Source of the DNA: an uncultured Paracoccaceae bacterium
GTDB lineage: Bacteria; Pseudomonadota; Alphaproteobacteria; Rhodobacterales; Rhodobacteraceae
DNA: 32,566 nt
Assembly: GCA_903930735.1 (NCBI GenBank)
Contig: CAIYZT010000197.1
Coordinates: 1 to 32,566, forward strand
Direction: 5' to 3'
Below the pieces are notes generated by a model. The model saw only the letters and a program-made list of their open reading frames with translations. It was not told the DNA's origin and searched no databases. A program made the translations under genes and the position numbers. Within the stretch, counting starts at the first letter, position 1. Each line of letters opens with the position of its first letter. Shown piece by piece: positions 23,539 to 29,550 of the stretch.

Positions 23539-23943
23539 CTACTCAGCCACCTTGCACACGCCGCGCGCGTGCAACTGGTCGATGTAACCAACGGGTTTGG
23601 CCTGAACGCTGAACTCTTTGTTGGCAAAGTACAAAACGGCCCGCAGGTCCATCTTGGTGCGTTGCCCGGCGCCGTCGATGACAAAGGGCGCCCAGCTGCA
23701 GGAAATCTTCGCAGCATTCCTGCCGGTCACCTTTCCTGTCACCGGCTTGCCGTCGTTGAAATACTCGATCAAACCATCATAAATTTCGATCGTTTTGCGA
23801 TCTTCCTGATATTCAAAAAAGTACTGCTCCGTAAGCCATCCACCATTAGCCGATCCGGGGTTTACGGCGCAGTCATACACCGTCGCCTGCGCGCAAGCTG
23901 CCACAAAGGCGAGGAAAATTGTTGATAAAAAAGTTGATTTCAC
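23539..23943 (-). CDS. small exported hypothetical protein
   Basis: Protein of 134 residues with a clear N-terminal export signal, MKSTFLSTIFLAFVAACAQA. Cleavage could be type I after AQA (residue 20) or type II before Cys17, since VAAC fits a lipobox. The mature part holds three more cysteines (DCAV, SCSW and the terminal GVCK), suggesting disulfides in the periplasm. It seems related to Rhodobacteraceae proteins of unknown role, judged by the YDC start and the RGVCK end, which I recall only loosely. Parts are AT-rich compared with neighbours (19 G+C of 60 at 23761-23820). No function assigned. Confidence 0.75.
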   Translation of the reverse strand: MKSTFLSTIFLAFVAACAQATVYDCAVNPGSANGGWLTEQYFFEYQEDRKTIEIYDGLIEYFNDGKPVTGKVTGRNAAKISCSWAPFVIDGAGQRTKMDLRAVLYFANKEFSVQAKPVGYIDQLHARGVCKVAE

Positions 23944-24019
23944 GGGTCACCCTTGGTTTATACAACCCCAAGTTTTTCAACGTCAATTCATTAGTCAATG
24001 ATCATATCACCTGAAATTG

Positions 24020-24047
24020 AAAAAGCCGCGCCTGAGCGCGACCTTTT
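24020..24047 (-). terminator. intrinsic terminator of the sox operon
   Basis: On the minus strand CGCGC-TCAG-GCGCG forms a stem-loop followed by GCTTTTT, 19 bp after the soxG stop. A-rich bases upstream mirror the T-run. Confidence 0.75.
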
Positions 24048-24065
24048 GAAACAATCGTCGTTTTT

Positions 24066-24617
24066 TCAGTTCAATTCTGATCCCGGCTGCGCCGAATGGG
24101 TCAGAAGCCCCATCATATAGCCCGCAACCGAGCGGAAACAGACCACGCGGTAGCCGCCGTCGATTGCCCAGAACGCGGCGGCCACTTGCGCCGCGCGGCT
24201 GCGGCGCAACTCGTCCGGTGCCATTTGGCCGATATCCACCGGCATCAGTTTGCGCAGAACCTGATCCGCCTTGCCCCCCGTCACATCAAACACCGCGCGC
24301 GCGTCCGAGACGACGGCCGCCAGATGATGCTCGGCCCCCATCGTCTTTGAAATCGCGGCCATCGCGGCTTCTGTGTCGGCGTAGGGCATGACCAGCAGAT
24401 ACTCGTCCGGGCTCATCCAGCCCGCCGCCCGATCGCCTGCGACCACAATCCGGCGCGGTGCGGGCAGCCCAGTGCCGACCGCCGCCTTGATCGCCTTGGC
24501 AAGCGCCTTGACCTCAGGCCCGGCGCGCAGGCTGATCATGCCCAGAGGGCCGATCTCTTGAACCGTGGCAAAGCCGTCGAAACGGGCCAGCCCCAAAGCG
24601 GATACAGGATCAGACAT
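24066..24617 (-). CDS. soxG: sarcosine oxidase, gamma subunit
   Basis: Gamma subunit (183 residues) of heterotetrameric sarcosine oxidase; the fold resembles folate-binding GcvT-type domains and has a structural role. Signs are SALGLARFDGFATVQEIGPLGMISLR near the start, AGWMSPDEYLLVMP, VSDARAVFDVTGGKADQVLRK, and FWAIDGGYRVVCFRSVAGYM. The ATG at 24617 overlaps the soxA stop by 8 bp (ATGTCTGA), so translation is coupled. It is the last gene of the operon, followed by a terminator. Confidence 0.94.
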   Translation of the reverse strand: MSDPVSALGLARFDGFATVQEIGPLGMISLRAGPEVKALAKAIKAAVGTGLPAPRRIVVAGDRAAGWMSPDEYLLVMPYADTEAAMAAISKTMGAEHHLAAVVSDARAVFDVTGGKADQVLRKLMPVDIGQMAPDELRRSRAAQVAAAFWAIDGGYRVVCFRSVAGYMMGLLTHSAQPGSELN

Positions 24618-27600
24618 TCTGCATCTCCCCTTCCTTGTCATAAAACACCGGATCCACGACCCGCGCTTTTACCGTGCCGTTTGGCAAGGTATTGAACTCC
24701 ACCACATCGCCCAAACGGTCCATCCCACCCACGATCAGCCCCATCGCAATCCCCCGCCCAAGCGTCGGCGAATGATAGGTCGAGGTGACGCGCCCTTGGG
24801 TATTGCGCTGGCCATTGGCATTCACGCCCTCGGCAATAATATAGGCGCCGTCGGGAATAACTGAGCCATCCAGCGTTTCAAACCCGGCGAGTTTAAAACG
24901 GTCGGGGCGCGCCAGATAAGTCCGCTCTTGCCCCCTTTTACCCAGATAATCCGCCTTTTTCTTGGAGATCGCCCAGCCCAGATTCAAATCCTGCGGGATC
25001 ACCGTGCCATCGGTTTCATCGCCCATCATGATGAACCCCTTTTCGGCCCGCATGACGTGCATAGCTTCGGTGCCGTAGGGCTGCACGCCCAGATCCGCCC
25101 CCGCCGCGATCAGCTTTTCCCAAAGCGCCAGACCCTGGCTGGCAGCGACCGCAATCTCATAAGAAAGCTCGCCCGAAAAAGAGATCCGGTAAACGCGCAC
25201 TGGCAAACCTGCCAGAGTGCCCTCGGCGAAGCCCATGAAGGGCAAGGATTCTTTCGACACATCCATCCCACCCAGCTTTTCCAGAAGCTGGCGCGCCTTG
25301 GGACCGGCCACGGCGATCTGCGCATATTGCTCGGTCACATTGGCGGTATAGACCTGCCAATCCCACCATTCACATTGCAGCCAATCCTCCATCCAGCCGT
25401 GGATCCGCTCGGCGCCGCCGGTGGTGGTGTGGCAAAGCCAGCTGTCTTCGGACAGACGTACAACCACGCCGTCATCGGACAGAAAACCCTGCTCGTTGCA
25501 CATCAGTCCGTAGCGGCACTTGCCGACCGGCAGGTTGGACATGACATTGGTGTAAAGCATATCAAGGAAACGCCCCGCATCGGGCCCCTTGACCACGATC
25601 TTGCCCAGCGTCGAGGCATCAAGCAGCCCGACATTGGCCCGCGTGTTCAAAATTTCGCGGTGCACGGCCTGTTCATGGGTCTCGGGTCCGCGCGGATAGC
25701 AATAGGCGCGCCGCCAAAGGCCGACCGGCTCCAGATAGGCGGCATGGGCCTCGTGCCAGGCGTGCATCGGCGTACGGCGCAGCGGCTGAAAGATCTCGCC
25801 GCGCGATTCGCCCGCCAGCGCGCCCAGTGGAACGGGCGTATAGGGCGGGCGGAAGGTGGTGGTTCCTACCGCAGGGATAGGCTCGTTCAGCGCGCCGGAC
25901 AACACCGCCAGACCATTGATATTAGAAAGCTTTCCCTGATCCGTCGCCATGCCAAGGGTGGTGTAACGTTTGGCATGCTCCACGCTGGTATAGCCTTCGC
26001 GGGCGGCCAGCTGTACATCCGAGACCTTCACATCATTCTGGAAATCGAGCCACATCTTGGCGCGCAGCACGGTGTTGGCACCCTGCGGCATCACCCATAC
26101 CGGCTCCATCGCGGCCTCGGAGCAAACCACAGCCTTGGCCAGTTTGCCGCGCGTTTTCAGGCCCAACTCGCCAACCACATTGCTTGCAACCCGGCCCGCA
26201 TCGGCGAGCGCCGCATCGCCCTGCAAGGCGCCATTCGCGGCCCCCGCGGCGAAAACCATGCTTGCGCCATCCTGATTGGTCGGCGGGCGCGCGGAGTCGG
26301 GGCGGAAATGCGCTTGCGCGTCGTCCCAGATCAGCTTGCCGCCGCAATGCGAGAAGAGATGCACAACCGGCGACCAGCCGCCCGACATCGCCACGACATC
26401 GCAAACGACCTCTTCCAATACCGCGCCCTCACCCGCCTGCAGACCAATCGCGACCCCGCTGACACGCGCGCCGCCCTTGACCTTGACCACCGCCCGGCCC
26501 GAGGTGATGCGAATCCCCATTGCGCGCGCCTTAGCAGGCAAATCGCCCGTCACTTCGGCGCGGGCATCGATGATCAAAGGCACTTCCAGACCGGCCTCGC
26601 GCAGCGCGATTGCGGTACGGTAGGCGTCGTCGTTATTGGTCACGAGCACGGTGCGGTCGCCGGCCGAGACGCCGTAATTCACCACATAATCGCGCACCGC
26701 CGAGGCCAGCATCACGCCCGGAATATCATTGCCCGCAAAGGCAAGCGGACGCTCCAACGCGCCGGTCGCGGCAATGATCCGCCCGGCGCGGATCCGCCAA
26801 AGACGGTGTTTCGGGCGGCCATCGCCGGGGGTATGGTCGGCGATATTTTCATCCGCGAGCACATAGCCGTGGTCATAGGATCCCGCCACCATGCAGCGGC
26901 TGCGCATGGTGACATTTTCCATCTTTCCAAGGGCTTCCAGCACGGCCTTAATCCACTCTTCAGCCGGTTTGCCGTTGATCAGATCGCCGTCAACAGGCGC
27001 ACGGCCGCCCCAATGGGCGTTTTGCTCCAGCAGCATGACGCGCGCGCCGGAACTTGCGGCAACCAGCGCCGCCTGCAGGCCCGCGATGCCGCCGCCCGCG
27101 ATCAGGATATCGCAAAAGGCATAGGCATGTTCATAGCGATCACCGTCCGCCTCGGTTGGCGCTTGGCCCAGGCCGGCGGATTGGCGGATAAAGGGCTCGA
27201 ATACATGCTTCCACGCGGCGCGCGGATGGATGAAGGTTTTGTAGTAAAATCCGGCGGGCAAAAAGCGGGCGAAAAGGCCGTTTACCACGCCGATATCCAT
27301 CTCGAGGCTCGGCCAATGGTTTTGGCTGCGTGCGGTCAGGCCAGCGAAAAGCTCGGTCGTGGTGGCGCGCTGGTTGGGTGCGAATTGCGCGCCGGTGCCC
27401 ATGTTGATCAGCGCGTTCGGCTCCTCGGCGCCCGAGGCGACGATGCCGCGCGGGCGGTGGTATTTGAACGAGCGCCCGACGAGCATCTGATCATTGGCAA
27501 GCAGCGCGGCAGCAAGCGTATCGCCTTGAAATCCGCGCATCCGCTTGGAATTGAAGGTGAATTCAACAGCGCTGCTCCGGTCGATCAAGCGGCCGCCTTT

Positions 27601-27618
27601 TTGCAAACGGGTGCTCAT
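24610..27618 (-). CDS. soxA: sarcosine oxidase, alpha subunit
   Basis: Large subunit of 1002 residues, typical length. It binds NAD+ and tetrahydrofolate and turns the one-carbon unit from sarcosine into methylene-THF. Order of domains: N-terminal ferredoxin-like fold (about 10-95, including SFKYHRPRGIVASG), Rossmann dinucleotide site DILIAGGGIAGLQAALVAAS (near 168), a second nucleotide-binding half with DRTVLVTNNDDAYRTA, and a C-terminal aminomethyltransferase-like domain with ASTLGKIVVKGPDAGRFLD and VMRAEKGFIMMGDE. Start ATG 27618 overlaps the soxD stop (ATGA). Confidence 0.97.
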   Translation of the reverse strand: MSTRLQKGGRLIDRSSAVEFTFNSKRMRGFQGDTLAAALLANDQMLVGRSFKYHRPRGIVASGAEEPNALINMGTGAQFAPNQRATTTELFAGLTARSQNHWPSLEMDIGVVNGLFARFLPAGFYYKTFIHPRAAWKHVFEPFIRQSAGLGQAPTEADGDRYEHAYAFCDILIAGGGIAGLQAALVAASSGARVMLLEQNAHWGGRAPVDGDLINGKPAEEWIKAVLEALGKMENVTMRSRCMVAGSYDHGYVLADENIADHTPGDGRPKHRLWRIRAGRIIAATGALERPLAFAGNDIPGVMLASAVRDYVVNYGVSAGDRTVLVTNNDDAYRTAIALREAGLEVPLIIDARAEVTGDLPAKARAMGIRITSGRAVVKVKGGARVSGVAIGLQAGEGAVLEEVVCDVVAMSGGWSPVVHLFSHCGGKLIWDDAQAHFRPDSARPPTNQDGASMVFAAGAANGALQGDAALADAGRVASNVVGELGLKTRGKLAKAVVCSEAAMEPVWVMPQGANTVLRAKMWLDFQNDVKVSDVQLAAREGYTSVEHAKRYTTLGMATDQGKLSNINGLAVLSGALNEPIPAVGTTTFRPPYTPVPLGALAGESRGEIFQPLRRTPMHAWHEAHAAYLEPVGLWRRAYCYPRGPETHEQAVHREILNTRANVGLLDASTLGKIVVKGPDAGRFLDMLYTNVMSNLPVGKCRYGLMCNEQGFLSDDGVVVRLSEDSWLCHTTTGGAERIHGWMEDWLQCEWWDWQVYTANVTEQYAQIAVAGPKARQLLEKLGGMDVSKESLPFMGFAEGTLAGLPVRVYRISFSGELSYEIAVAASQGLALWEKLIAAGADLGVQPYGTEAMHVMRAEKGFIMMGDETDGTVIPQDLNLGWAISKKKADYLGKRGQERTYLARPDRFKLAGFETLDGSVIPDGAYIIAEGVNANGQRNTQGRVTSTYHSPTLGRGIAMGLIVGGMDRLGDVVEFNTLPNGTVKARVVDPVFYDKEGEMQNV

Positions 27619-27938
27619 TTGAAGCCCTTCCAGTCCGGCCGTTTGGCCTTGATTTTCGCGATGATCTCGGCGGGCGGCTCGCCTACCTGCGCGGGGTAGG
27701 TGCCGAAAACCTCCAGCGTGGCGGTGTCGCGGGCAGCAAGGAACCATTTTCCGCAGCCATAAGCGTGCCGCCAGCGTTCAAAATGCACGCCTTTGGGGTT
27801 CTTGCGGGCGAACATATAAGCCTCGAATTCTTCGGGGCTGGAACTGGGACCAAAGCGCTTCAAATGCGCCTCATAGCCGGGGGCCAGTTCGGTTTCATCG
27901 GCTTTGACGCCACAATAGGGGCATTCAAGGATCAGCAT
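27615..27938 (-). CDS. soxD: sarcosine oxidase, delta subunit
   Basis: Zinc-binding small subunit of 107 residues in the heterotetramer. Ligands are visible as Cys6 and Cys9 (ECPYCG), His58 and Cys62 (RHAYGCGKWF), the family set of three Cys and one His. The ATG at 27938 begins two codons inside the end of the upstream small membrane-protein gene and the stop overlaps soxA, so it is coupled on both sides. Confidence 0.96.
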   Translation of the reverse strand: MLILECPYCGVKADETELAPGYEAHLKRFGPSSSPEEFEAYMFARKNPKGVHFERWRHAYGCGKWFLAARDTATLEVFGTYPAQVGEPPAEIIAKIKAKRPDWKGFK

Positions 27939-28303
27939 GCAAATTGCTCCCAGATCAGGTCGCCGTAAGTTGAGTGGAACATTCCGTAGATCACCAGAAA
28001 GCTTTCCCAAGCGAATACTTTCGTTACATTCTCGGAATTGTAAGGAAATATTGCTTGCCCGTTGGCCGCTGCTATTCTTGGCACTTGAGCGCGCGCGACC
28101 ATCTTTTCCAACGTCCCTCCGAATGTTAGGAGGCCGATCAGAGTCGGAAACATTCCAAACCTTGCAAACTGCTCCGCGCCTAAGTTCAACCCAATAAGCA
28201 ATGCAAAGAATAAACTTAAGATCAATGAACCAATTGCTACCTTTGCAGGGTTTCGCATCGTCAGGTCCGCAATCTTAGAAAAAGCCCGCCCTAGGTTCCG
28301 CAT
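27932..28303 (-). CDS. small membrane protein gene inserted between soxB and soxD, unknown function
   Basis: Protein of 123 residues that I do not recognise. It has a basic, amphipathic N-terminus (MRNLGRAFSKIADLTMRNP), one strong membrane helix (about 24-42, AIGSLILSLFFALLIGLNL), a likely second one (about 47-64, FARFGMFPTLIGLLTFGG), and a soluble tail rich in aromatic residues. The gene is coupled at both ends: soxB stop and its ATG share TGATG, and its stop overlaps the soxD start (ATGCTGA). Base composition is unlike its neighbours: 22 G+C of 60 at 28201-28260, against 34 of 60 in soxB at 28441-28500. The coupling argues for real translation; the composition suggests later arrival. It is not part of the known alpha-beta-gamma-delta enzyme. 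Confidence 0.72.
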   Translation of the reverse strand: MRNLGRAFSKIADLTMRNPAKVAIGSLILSLFFALLIGLNLGAEQFARFGMFPTLIGLLTFGGTLEKMVARAQVPRIAAANGQAIFPYNSENVTKVFAWESFLVIYGMFHSTYGDLIWEQFAC

Positions 28304-29550
28304 CAATGCGCCACCCCCGCCGCAACGCTTTCGTCAATGAACTGGCCTTCCTTGAACCGCCACATGTTGAACGCCTCGGCCAAAGGCCCCGGCTCGCCCT
28401 TGGCCATCAGCTCGGCCATAGCCCAGCCGGATCCGGGGATCGCTTTGAAACCGCCCGTCCCCCAGCCGCAATTGATAAAGCAATTGCCCAGCGGCGTTTT
28501 GGAGATCAGCGGCGAGCGGTCGCCGGTCATATCCACGATCCCGCCCCATTGGCGCAGCATTTTCAGGCGCGAGATCATCGGGAAGGTCTCGATCAACGCG
28601 CGTACGGTTTCCTCGATATGGTGGAAAGATCCGCGCTGGGTGTAGTTGTTGAACCCGTCGGTGCCGCCGCCGATCACCATTTCGCCCTTGTCGGACTGGC
28701 TCATGTAGCCGTGCACGGTGTTGGCCATCACGACCACATCCATGCAGGGCTTGATCGGTTCCGACACCAGCGCCTGCAGCGCCACCGCCTCGATCGGCAG
28801 GCGAAAGCCGGCCATCTCGGCCAGTTGGCCCGAATGACCCGCCACCACCATGCCCAGCTTTTTGGTGCGGATCGGGCCCTTGGTGGTGTCGATGCCCACG
28901 ACTTGGCCGCCCTCGGATCGTATGCCGGTCACTTCGCATTGCTGGATGATATCCATGCCCATGGCGCTGCAGGCGCGGGCATAGCCCCAGGCCACGGCGT
29001 CATGGCGGGCGGTGCCGCCGCGCGGCTGGTACAATGCGCCCAAAACCGGATAGCGCGGCCCGGCCAGATTGATGATCGGCACCAGCTCTTTGACCTTTTC
29101 GGGGCCGATAAATTCGGTTTTCACGCCCTGCAGGGCATTGGCATGGGCGGTGCGCAGATAGCCGCGTACCTCGTGATGGGTCTGGGCCAGCATCAAAAGC
29201 CCGCGCGGGCTGAACATGACGTTGTAATTCAGATCCTGGCTGAGCGTCTCATACAGCTGCAGCGCCTTGTCATAGATCGCGGCCGAGGGGTCTTGCAGAT
29301 AGTTGGAGCGGATGATCGTGGTGTTGCGCCCGGTATTGCCACCGCCGAGCCACCCCTTTTCGATGATCGCCACATTGCGGATCCCGTGGTTTTTGCCAAG
29401 GTAATAGGCCGTGGCCAGCCCATGCCCGCCCGCGCCCACGATGATGGCATCATATTCCGCCTTTGGCTCGGGCGAGCGCCAGGCGCGTTCCCAGCCCATA
29501 TGATAGCTCAGCGCCTCGCGGGCGATGGCAAAGACGGAATAGCGTTTCAT
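28303..29550 (-). CDS. soxB: sarcosine oxidase, beta subunit
   Basis: Flavin subunit of 415 residues that oxidises sarcosine to glycine, giving peroxide. The FAD-binding N-terminus is DAIIVGAGGHGLATAYYLG (near 34-52). The covalent FMN site of the family is the His in GGTARHDAVAWG, here His183. RNTTIIRSNY and NCGWGTGGFKAIPGSG are further marks. ATG 29550 is preceded by GGAGAC; a longer reading to 29574 lacks support. It is the first gene of the operon, downstream of a 190-bp divergent region with TTG-CAA palindromes. Confidence 0.97.
   Translation of the reverse strand: MKRYSVFAIAREALSYHMGWERAWRSPEPKAEYDAIIVGAGGHGLATAYYLGKNHGIRNVAIIEKGWLGGGNTGRNTTIIRSNYLQDPSAAIYDKALQLYETLSQDLNYNVMFSPRGLLMLAQTHHEVRGYLRTAHANALQGVKTEFIGPEKVKELVPIINLAGPRYPVLGALYQPRGGTARHDAVAWGYARACSAMGMDIIQQCEVTGIRSEGGQVVGIDTTKGPIRTKKLGMVVAGHSGQLAEMAGFRLPIEAVALQALVSEPIKPCMDVVVMANTVHGYMSQSDKGEMVIGGGTDGFNNYTQRGSFHHIEETVRALIETFPMISRLKMLRQWGGIVDMTGDRSPLISKTPLGNCFINCGWGTGGFKAIPGSGWAMAELMAKGEPGPLAEAFNMWRFKEGQFIDESVAAGVAH

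Follow-up and report, generated by a model that had tools for sequence, protein, structure and literature searches.

An open -1 frame across variable cargo at the soxB-soxD junction of Rhodobacterales sarcosine oxidase operons: a probable cargo site and a candidate ribosome bridge

Background

Why would a small gene of comparatively low GC content, encoding a predicted membrane protein, lie inside an enzyme operon and overlap both the gene before it and the gene after it? This question is raised by the sarcosine oxidase (sox) operon in a stretch of 32,566 nucleotides from an uncultured Paracoccaceae bacterium (contig CAIYZT010000197.1), here called the window, in which a 123-codon open reading frame (ORF), P0001, separates soxB from soxD. 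A first-pass annotation of this DNA took the combination of coupling and foreign composition as a mark of an enzyme accessory. In the part of PMC10666635 that was available, coupling by reinitiation is described as nearly abolished once the distance reaches about 20 nt, and short overlaps, of which -4, -1 and -8 nt are the commonest, as enriched among subunits of heteromeric complexes. Because reinitiation is almost lost at such a distance, DNA inserted between the two genes would cut the coupling chain unless it is translated through. The portions consulted of the open-licence PMC literature on sarcosine oxidase genes and translational coupling yielded no report of the soxB-soxD junction.

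Methods

Two sets of loci were compared. One consisted of 120 loci fetched by place, being the best-scoring soxB matches listed, from 365 genomes; the other comprised 80 loci of named genomes, the best 80 of 594 candidates listed, of which 76 were usable. L058, L059, L253, L275, L289 and L319 were dropped for the absence of a soxD match, and seven junctions common to both sets were counted once. The loci share ancestry and were taken from the highest-ranking soxB matches, genomes with a more distant soxB being under-sampled. Co-directional neighbouring genes served as control pairs; a simple gene caller delimited them in 40 stretches, each of 20 kb, taken from 20 genomes of the order. The profile of the P0001 family was built from six members found at junctions, P0001 among these seeds, and was searched genome-wide.

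Results

The genes around P0001 form a sarcosine oxidase operon, as had been annotated: those for the beta, delta, alpha and gamma subunits are adjacent and all of their domains score above the cut-offs (Table 1). The sox genes of the window overlap at every junction (TGATG, ATGCTGA, ATGA and ATGTCTGA, or -1, -7, -4 and -8 nt). Reading the sequence confirmed the 123-residue ORF between soxB and soxD with the first two of these overlaps, by which it appears arranged for co-translation with both neighbours, as was originally argued.

Table 1. Features of the sox operon in the window
Feature	Position	Strand	Basis
soxB, sarcosine oxidase beta subunit	28303..29550	-	Pfam DAO, E 2.7e-66
TGATG, overlap of soxB stop and small-ORF ATG, -1 nt	28301..28305	-	read from sequence
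P0001, 123-aa small membrane-protein gene (predicted), candidate -1-frame bridge from soxB to soxD	27932..28303	-	
ATGCTGA, soxD ATG with the small-ORF stop 4 nt downstream, -7 nt overlap	27932..27938	-	read from sequence
soxD, delta subunit	27615..27938	-	Pfam SoxD, E 3.3e-26
soxA, alpha subunit	24610..27618	-	Pfam SO_alpha_A3, E 5.1e-32; GCV_T, E 1.4e-70
soxA start in ATGA overlap with soxD, -4 nt		-	junction read from sequence
soxG, gamma subunit	24066..24617	-	Pfam SoxG, E 1.2e-9
ATGTCTGA, overlap of soxG and soxA, -8 nt		-	junction read from sequence

P0001 runs through its 123 codons without an internal stop. Its low GC content held up (0.481, or 48%, against 0.624, or 62%, for the window), the count at 28201-28260 being 23 of 60 and not the 22 given earlier. 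GC at the three codon positions is 0.49/0.42/0.55, compared with 0.60/0.46/0.81 in soxB, so that the third positions stand at 54.5% and 81.2%, respectively. P0001 is not the part of the window with the lowest GC, which starts at 23711; the lowest 372-nt stretch (23711-24082, 45.7%) lies immediately downstream of soxG, and the ORF beyond it is one that we take to be superoxide-dismutase-like. An AlphaFold2 model (mean pLDDT 77, from an alignment of five sequences) has helices at residues 2-17, 19-41, 43-48, 51-80 and 90-122. Membrane helices, as annotated, are thus predicted, their number being two or three and not surely two.

Compared with PDB folds, the model gave no match at E <= 0.001, and among sequences of solved structures the best matches had E 0.66 and 1.3. 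Pfam, PHROGs, NCBIfam and PADLOC returned no family match for P0001. Single-protein scans of plasmid, phage, viral_contigs and genome_contigs collections gave no significant match except P0001 itself, which was also the sole match in its own genome, and among 147 relatives none had a significant match, which left no close relative for a comparison of purifying selection.

Homologues were found in other genera. Searched alone against 390 genomes of the order, P0001 had one clear homologue, in G442 (25% identity, E 6.4e-10), which likewise lies between soxB and soxD. The family profile, of which P0001 is a seed, matched 31 of the 390 genomes at E <= 0.01; among 30 matches that were fetched, 22 had soxB within 1.5 kb on either side and 21 had soxD too. 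At E <= 2e-5, 18 of the 21 fetched matches sit at the soxB-soxD junction (13 of 16 once the five seed genomes are set aside), and three family members lie away from sox (L187, L191 and L197). A phylum-wide sample added matches at E <= 0.001 in 5 of 298 other genomes, one of them with an internal stop, and inspection by eye of the short flanks of these five revealed no sox gene. Two motifs mark the family, FxRxGS following a first membrane helix and GT-x-WGxGDL towards the end; P0001, itself a seed of the profile, keeps FARFG and YGDL and is without GT-x-W. On this comparison P0001 appears to belong to a wider, nameless family of small membrane proteins that is patchily distributed and recurs at this site, and its homologues in other genera, which occupy the corresponding place, rule out a chance ORF. 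Two genomes (G337:C2 and G308:C1) were seen to carry two family members within one soxB-soxD spacer.

Is P0001 then kept in the operon as an accessory of sarcosine oxidase, for instance as a membrane tether or in handling substrate or product? The adjacency of 18 of the 21 family matches (E <= 2e-5) to soxB speaks for such a role, as does the likely co-translation of P0001 with the enzyme genes. However, the tabulation of homologues that the first-pass annotation had proposed places them mostly at the junction in a small minority of genomes (the 31 of 390), whereas soxB relatives at E <= 1e-195 occur in 365 of the 390. G001, the sole other genome of the same genus examined, has a soxB that is 94% identical, a spacer of 63 bp and no match to P0001. 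Other cargo, moreover, occupies the same slot elsewhere, and the family has members away from sox, both in the order and in the five genomes of the phylum-wide sample. The idea that coupling and foreign composition point to an accessory was not borne out, since unrelated cargo or nothing at all lies at this junction in other genomes, and we regard an accessory role as quite unlikely. It also seems unlikely, if a shade less so, that the cargo, including the P0001 family, is a collection of small conflict genes exploiting a well-expressed site, with products resembling defence or toxin membrane proteins. The AT-rich composition and patchy distribution would fit this, together with a weak RTasSLATT match in PADLOC (E 0.0057) for one family member other than P0001 among 11 tested, but P0001 matched no family in PADLOC, Pfam, NCBIfam or PHROGs and is not assigned by PADLOC, Pfam or NCBIfam to SLATT or another curated defence membrane family.

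Across 230 distinct soxB-soxD junctions, mostly from Rhodobacterales, the spacer ranges from -1 to 2648 bp (12 to 2648 bp in the first 149). Eight named records outside Rhodobacterales or unplaced (L318, L320-L322 and L326-L329) have spacers of -1 to 23 bp in seven cases and of 168 in one. The cargo varies. Some spacers code for small membrane proteins on one strand or the other, single-helix ones on the sox strand among them; some hold TfoX_N genes (Pfam E 2.3e-11 for L080) or a family of 265 aa, the tested part of which had no Pfam match; still others hold different genes or no gene. An FkbM-like identity considered for the cargo family of L062, L102, L111 and L118 was dropped, as 150 residues of L111 had no Pfam match. 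Antisense single-helix small proteins that are alike between loci were also seen inside the sox operon (L085, L087, L095, L115, L043, L144 and others). When 106 spacers were grouped by similarity they fell into 45 clusters if any blastn match was accepted and into 72 if 30% had to match; the largest cluster holds 50 of the 106, so that the cargo is partly common to loci.

Regardless of the insert, TGATG is present at 99 and ATGCTGA at 114 of the first 149 junctions. These overlap sequences therefore appear to be a property of soxB and soxD and not of the insert, and the coupling of P0001 a property of the site and not of P0001. Their earlier reading as something special to P0001 has to be given up, as the same overlaps occur with other cargo or none. 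A casual insertion with accidental overlaps was considered as a general account and is ruled out, because overlaps and open frame recur with differing inserts.

Partial copies of the soxD 5' end or the soxB 3' end were observed in the spacers of L118, L133, L172, L042 and L195 (67-190 nt, 76-96% identical; the count excludes L126, L054 and L185, where matches were weaker, and loci fetched a second time). Such duplicated pieces suggest that insertion may have proceeded by recombination anchored via homology on one side.

What recurs at these junctions is an open frame. Among the 145 distinct junctions with spacers of at least 150 bp, the -1, 0 and +1 frames are open from end to end in 87, 1 and 3, respectively, and in 84 a -1-frame ORF spans the spacer and arrives in register with the TGA of the soxD ATGCTGA. 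Such spanning is found in 26 of 45 spacers of at least 150 bp from named genomes, and bridges reach 1543 bp (L282). At 150-1300 bp, a spanning -1 ORF was present in 60 of 94 sox spacers vs 3 of 98 control pairs, which are not necessarily co-transcribed. Spacer length equals 1 modulo 3 in 104 of 149 junctions. With clusters weighted, the open frames number 30.3 (-1), 0.0 (0) and 0.1 (+1), and 32 of the 45 similarity clusters of the 106 spacers include a spanning member; a single spanning ORF is absent from the TfoX_N cluster of seven loci.

A relay of at most one, two or three overlapping ORFs leads from soxB to soxD in 97, 124 and 130 of the 145 spacers, leaving 15 without a relay of up to three. 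The corresponding numbers are 5.8, 9.7 and 17.0 in dinucleotide shuffles of the same 145 spacers, 18.6, 26.1 and 30.9 with random genomic inserts, and 5, 12 and 15 of 104 control neighbour pairs, again not necessarily co-transcribed. Shifting the sox spacers by one base gives 7, 36 and 60, and by two bases 12, 59 and 73. In paralogous sox operons, 3 of the 6 junctions of at least 150 nt are crossed by a relay of at most three ORFs. Some of this openness comes at little cost from the way in which overlapping frames are laid out: of 27 conserved ORFs that occupy a different frame, 15 leave the -1 frame open, vs 10.3 expected under synonymous permutation, and the excess of openness therefore rests largely on the frame used, the spacer length and the flanks.

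Bridging and a junctional start codon tend to occur together. For gaps of at least 20, spanning occurs in 92 of 138 junctions with such a codon and in 4 of 19 without (Fisher p 2e-4). TGATG accompanies a last soxB codon CAC (His, no TTG start) in 74 of 83 cases and CAT in 66 of 111 (p 4e-6). The start-codon association favours reinitiation over ribosomal frameshifting, by which the open -1 frame would be a C-terminal extension of SoxB. This last explanation, with which the -1 frame of L005, open upstream within soxB too, would agree, is also opposed by the 84 of 145 spacers that are spanned in phase with the TGA of the soxD start, and we hold it to be extremely improbable.

Shine-Dalgarno pairing at soxD is as strong in bridged (n=60) as in unbridged loci (n=46; p 0.31). 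As it is equal with or without a bridge, soxD could initiate alone, and the bridge might then serve transcription, ribosomes in the spacer blocking Rho on the sox transcript while soxD starts on its own Shine-Dalgarno sequence. According to the available part of PMC12548453, Rho loads onto untranslated RNA, and bridges of up to 1543 bp (L282) would suit such shielding. Bridging ORFs, however, also span gaps as short as 40-70 nt, over which little effect of Rho is to be expected, and they start and finish at or near stop and start codons; Rho shielding as the sole purpose is possible but in our opinion doubtful. Similar arrangements occur at the next junction of the operon. The soxD-soxA overlap is -4 nt in 109 of 227 cases, and where a gap of 31-250 nt separates the two genes (n=97), one bridging ORF is present in 92 vs 50.5 expected from shuffles. 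Among the 45 rows listed, these ORFs (e.g. L086 and L169) have 15-64 codons, starting at or near the soxD stop and finishing at the soxA start; several end in CERSA plus one residue, and others have no obvious likeness.

Substitutions between related spacers were used to ask which frame is conserved. In L126/L154 they peak at the third position of the bridge frame, as expected if the bridging frame encodes a protein. The peak falls on position 2 of the -1 frame in L067/L068, L083/L088, L112/L150 and L157/L174, and on position 1, over an antisense ORF, in L085/L087; in those pairs the conserved frame therefore differs from the -1 frame. In 8 of the 14 spacer pairs there was no clear peak or there were too few changes. 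Of 84 bridging frames, 26 have their highest GC at position 3, 12 at position 2 and 10 at position 1, with 36 unclear. Indels between homologous spacers are multiples of three in 5 of 5 cases for L067/L068, 2/2 for L083/L097, 2/4 for L088/L097 and 8/10 for L112/L150, and in 1/7 for L113/L129, 1/7 for L119/L129, 1/3 for L120/L132 and 2/2 for L132/L155. At some loci, then, the bridging frame appears merely to shadow a gene that is read in a different frame, the coupling frame remaining open, whereas the ORF of the window seems to be a real cargo gene that serves as its own bridge.

Discussion

Judged from the sequences compared here, the soxB-soxD junction of Rhodobacterales is probably a variable cargo site in an operon arranged for coupling, where cargo is tolerated if ribosomes can bridge it. 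DNA would be exchanged at this site, perhaps via recombination within the sox genes on either side, which are conserved, and would persist mainly if a ribosome path remains from the soxB stop to the soxD start, either as a single ORF or as a short relay of overlapping ORFs. The bridge ORFs would be translated, and the benefit may consist in the delivery of ribosomes from soxB to soxD, and hence in stoichiometry, in the shielding of the mRNA from Rho, or in both. The open frames over differing cargo point to selection that would act on the open reading frame and not on a particular protein. Going one step further, we lean towards the view, at slightly better than even chances, that selection in Rhodobacterales keeps the frame between soxB and soxD open whatever amino acids it encodes, as a sequence-free ribosome bridge of about 1.5 kb at most that in places overlies sense and antisense genes in a frame that is not theirs. 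Our confidence in the bridge explanation is trimmed because the cargo is partly common to loci and most spacer pairs lack a clear substitution peak.

The finding of interest thus lies in a site whose frame seems to be kept open over varied content. If this is true, a frame can be preserved although the protein it encodes is not, and perfect start and stop overlaps of a small ORF in an operon need not mean that its product is useful, which bears on the annotation of such ORFs. A compulsory translated stretch would also be a place for the capture or birth of small, often membrane, proteins, the gene of the window being one. Moreover, well over a hundred natural spacers form a set for testing how reinitiation or Rho shielding limits operon evolution.

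Among known systems, the closest precedent that we found, by analogy, would be the mycobacterial MIRUs. According to the part of PMC12548453 consulted, these insert at a gene start and bring an ORF of their own that overlaps this start, and coupling can survive. The coupled-insert aspect is present at the sox site, with TGATG and ATGCTGA in the window and 84 of 145 spacers of at least 150 bp spanned in that register. MIRUs, however, are described in the same part of that source as short repetitive sequences, whereas the sox site holds many different sequences: the 106 spacers, in 45 to 72 clusters, are not one repeated mobile sequence, and P0001 matches in single copy. Sox bridges, in addition, extend up to 1543 bp (L282), and some cross a conserved gene that is read in a different frame or from the opposite strand. 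Termination-reinitiation coupling shares the short overlaps, for which -4, -1 and -8 nt are given as the commonest in the available part of PMC10666635, the window having -1, -7, -4 and -8; it differs in that sox coupling would be relayed via an intervening ORF without a conserved sequence. Short upstream ORFs that deliver ribosomes, as treated in the portion of PMC12548453 at hand, resemble the proposed bridge in their role, which would be to bring the ribosome to the next gene, but the sox bridge is long, lies within an operon and, at some loci including the window, would be a real gene as well.
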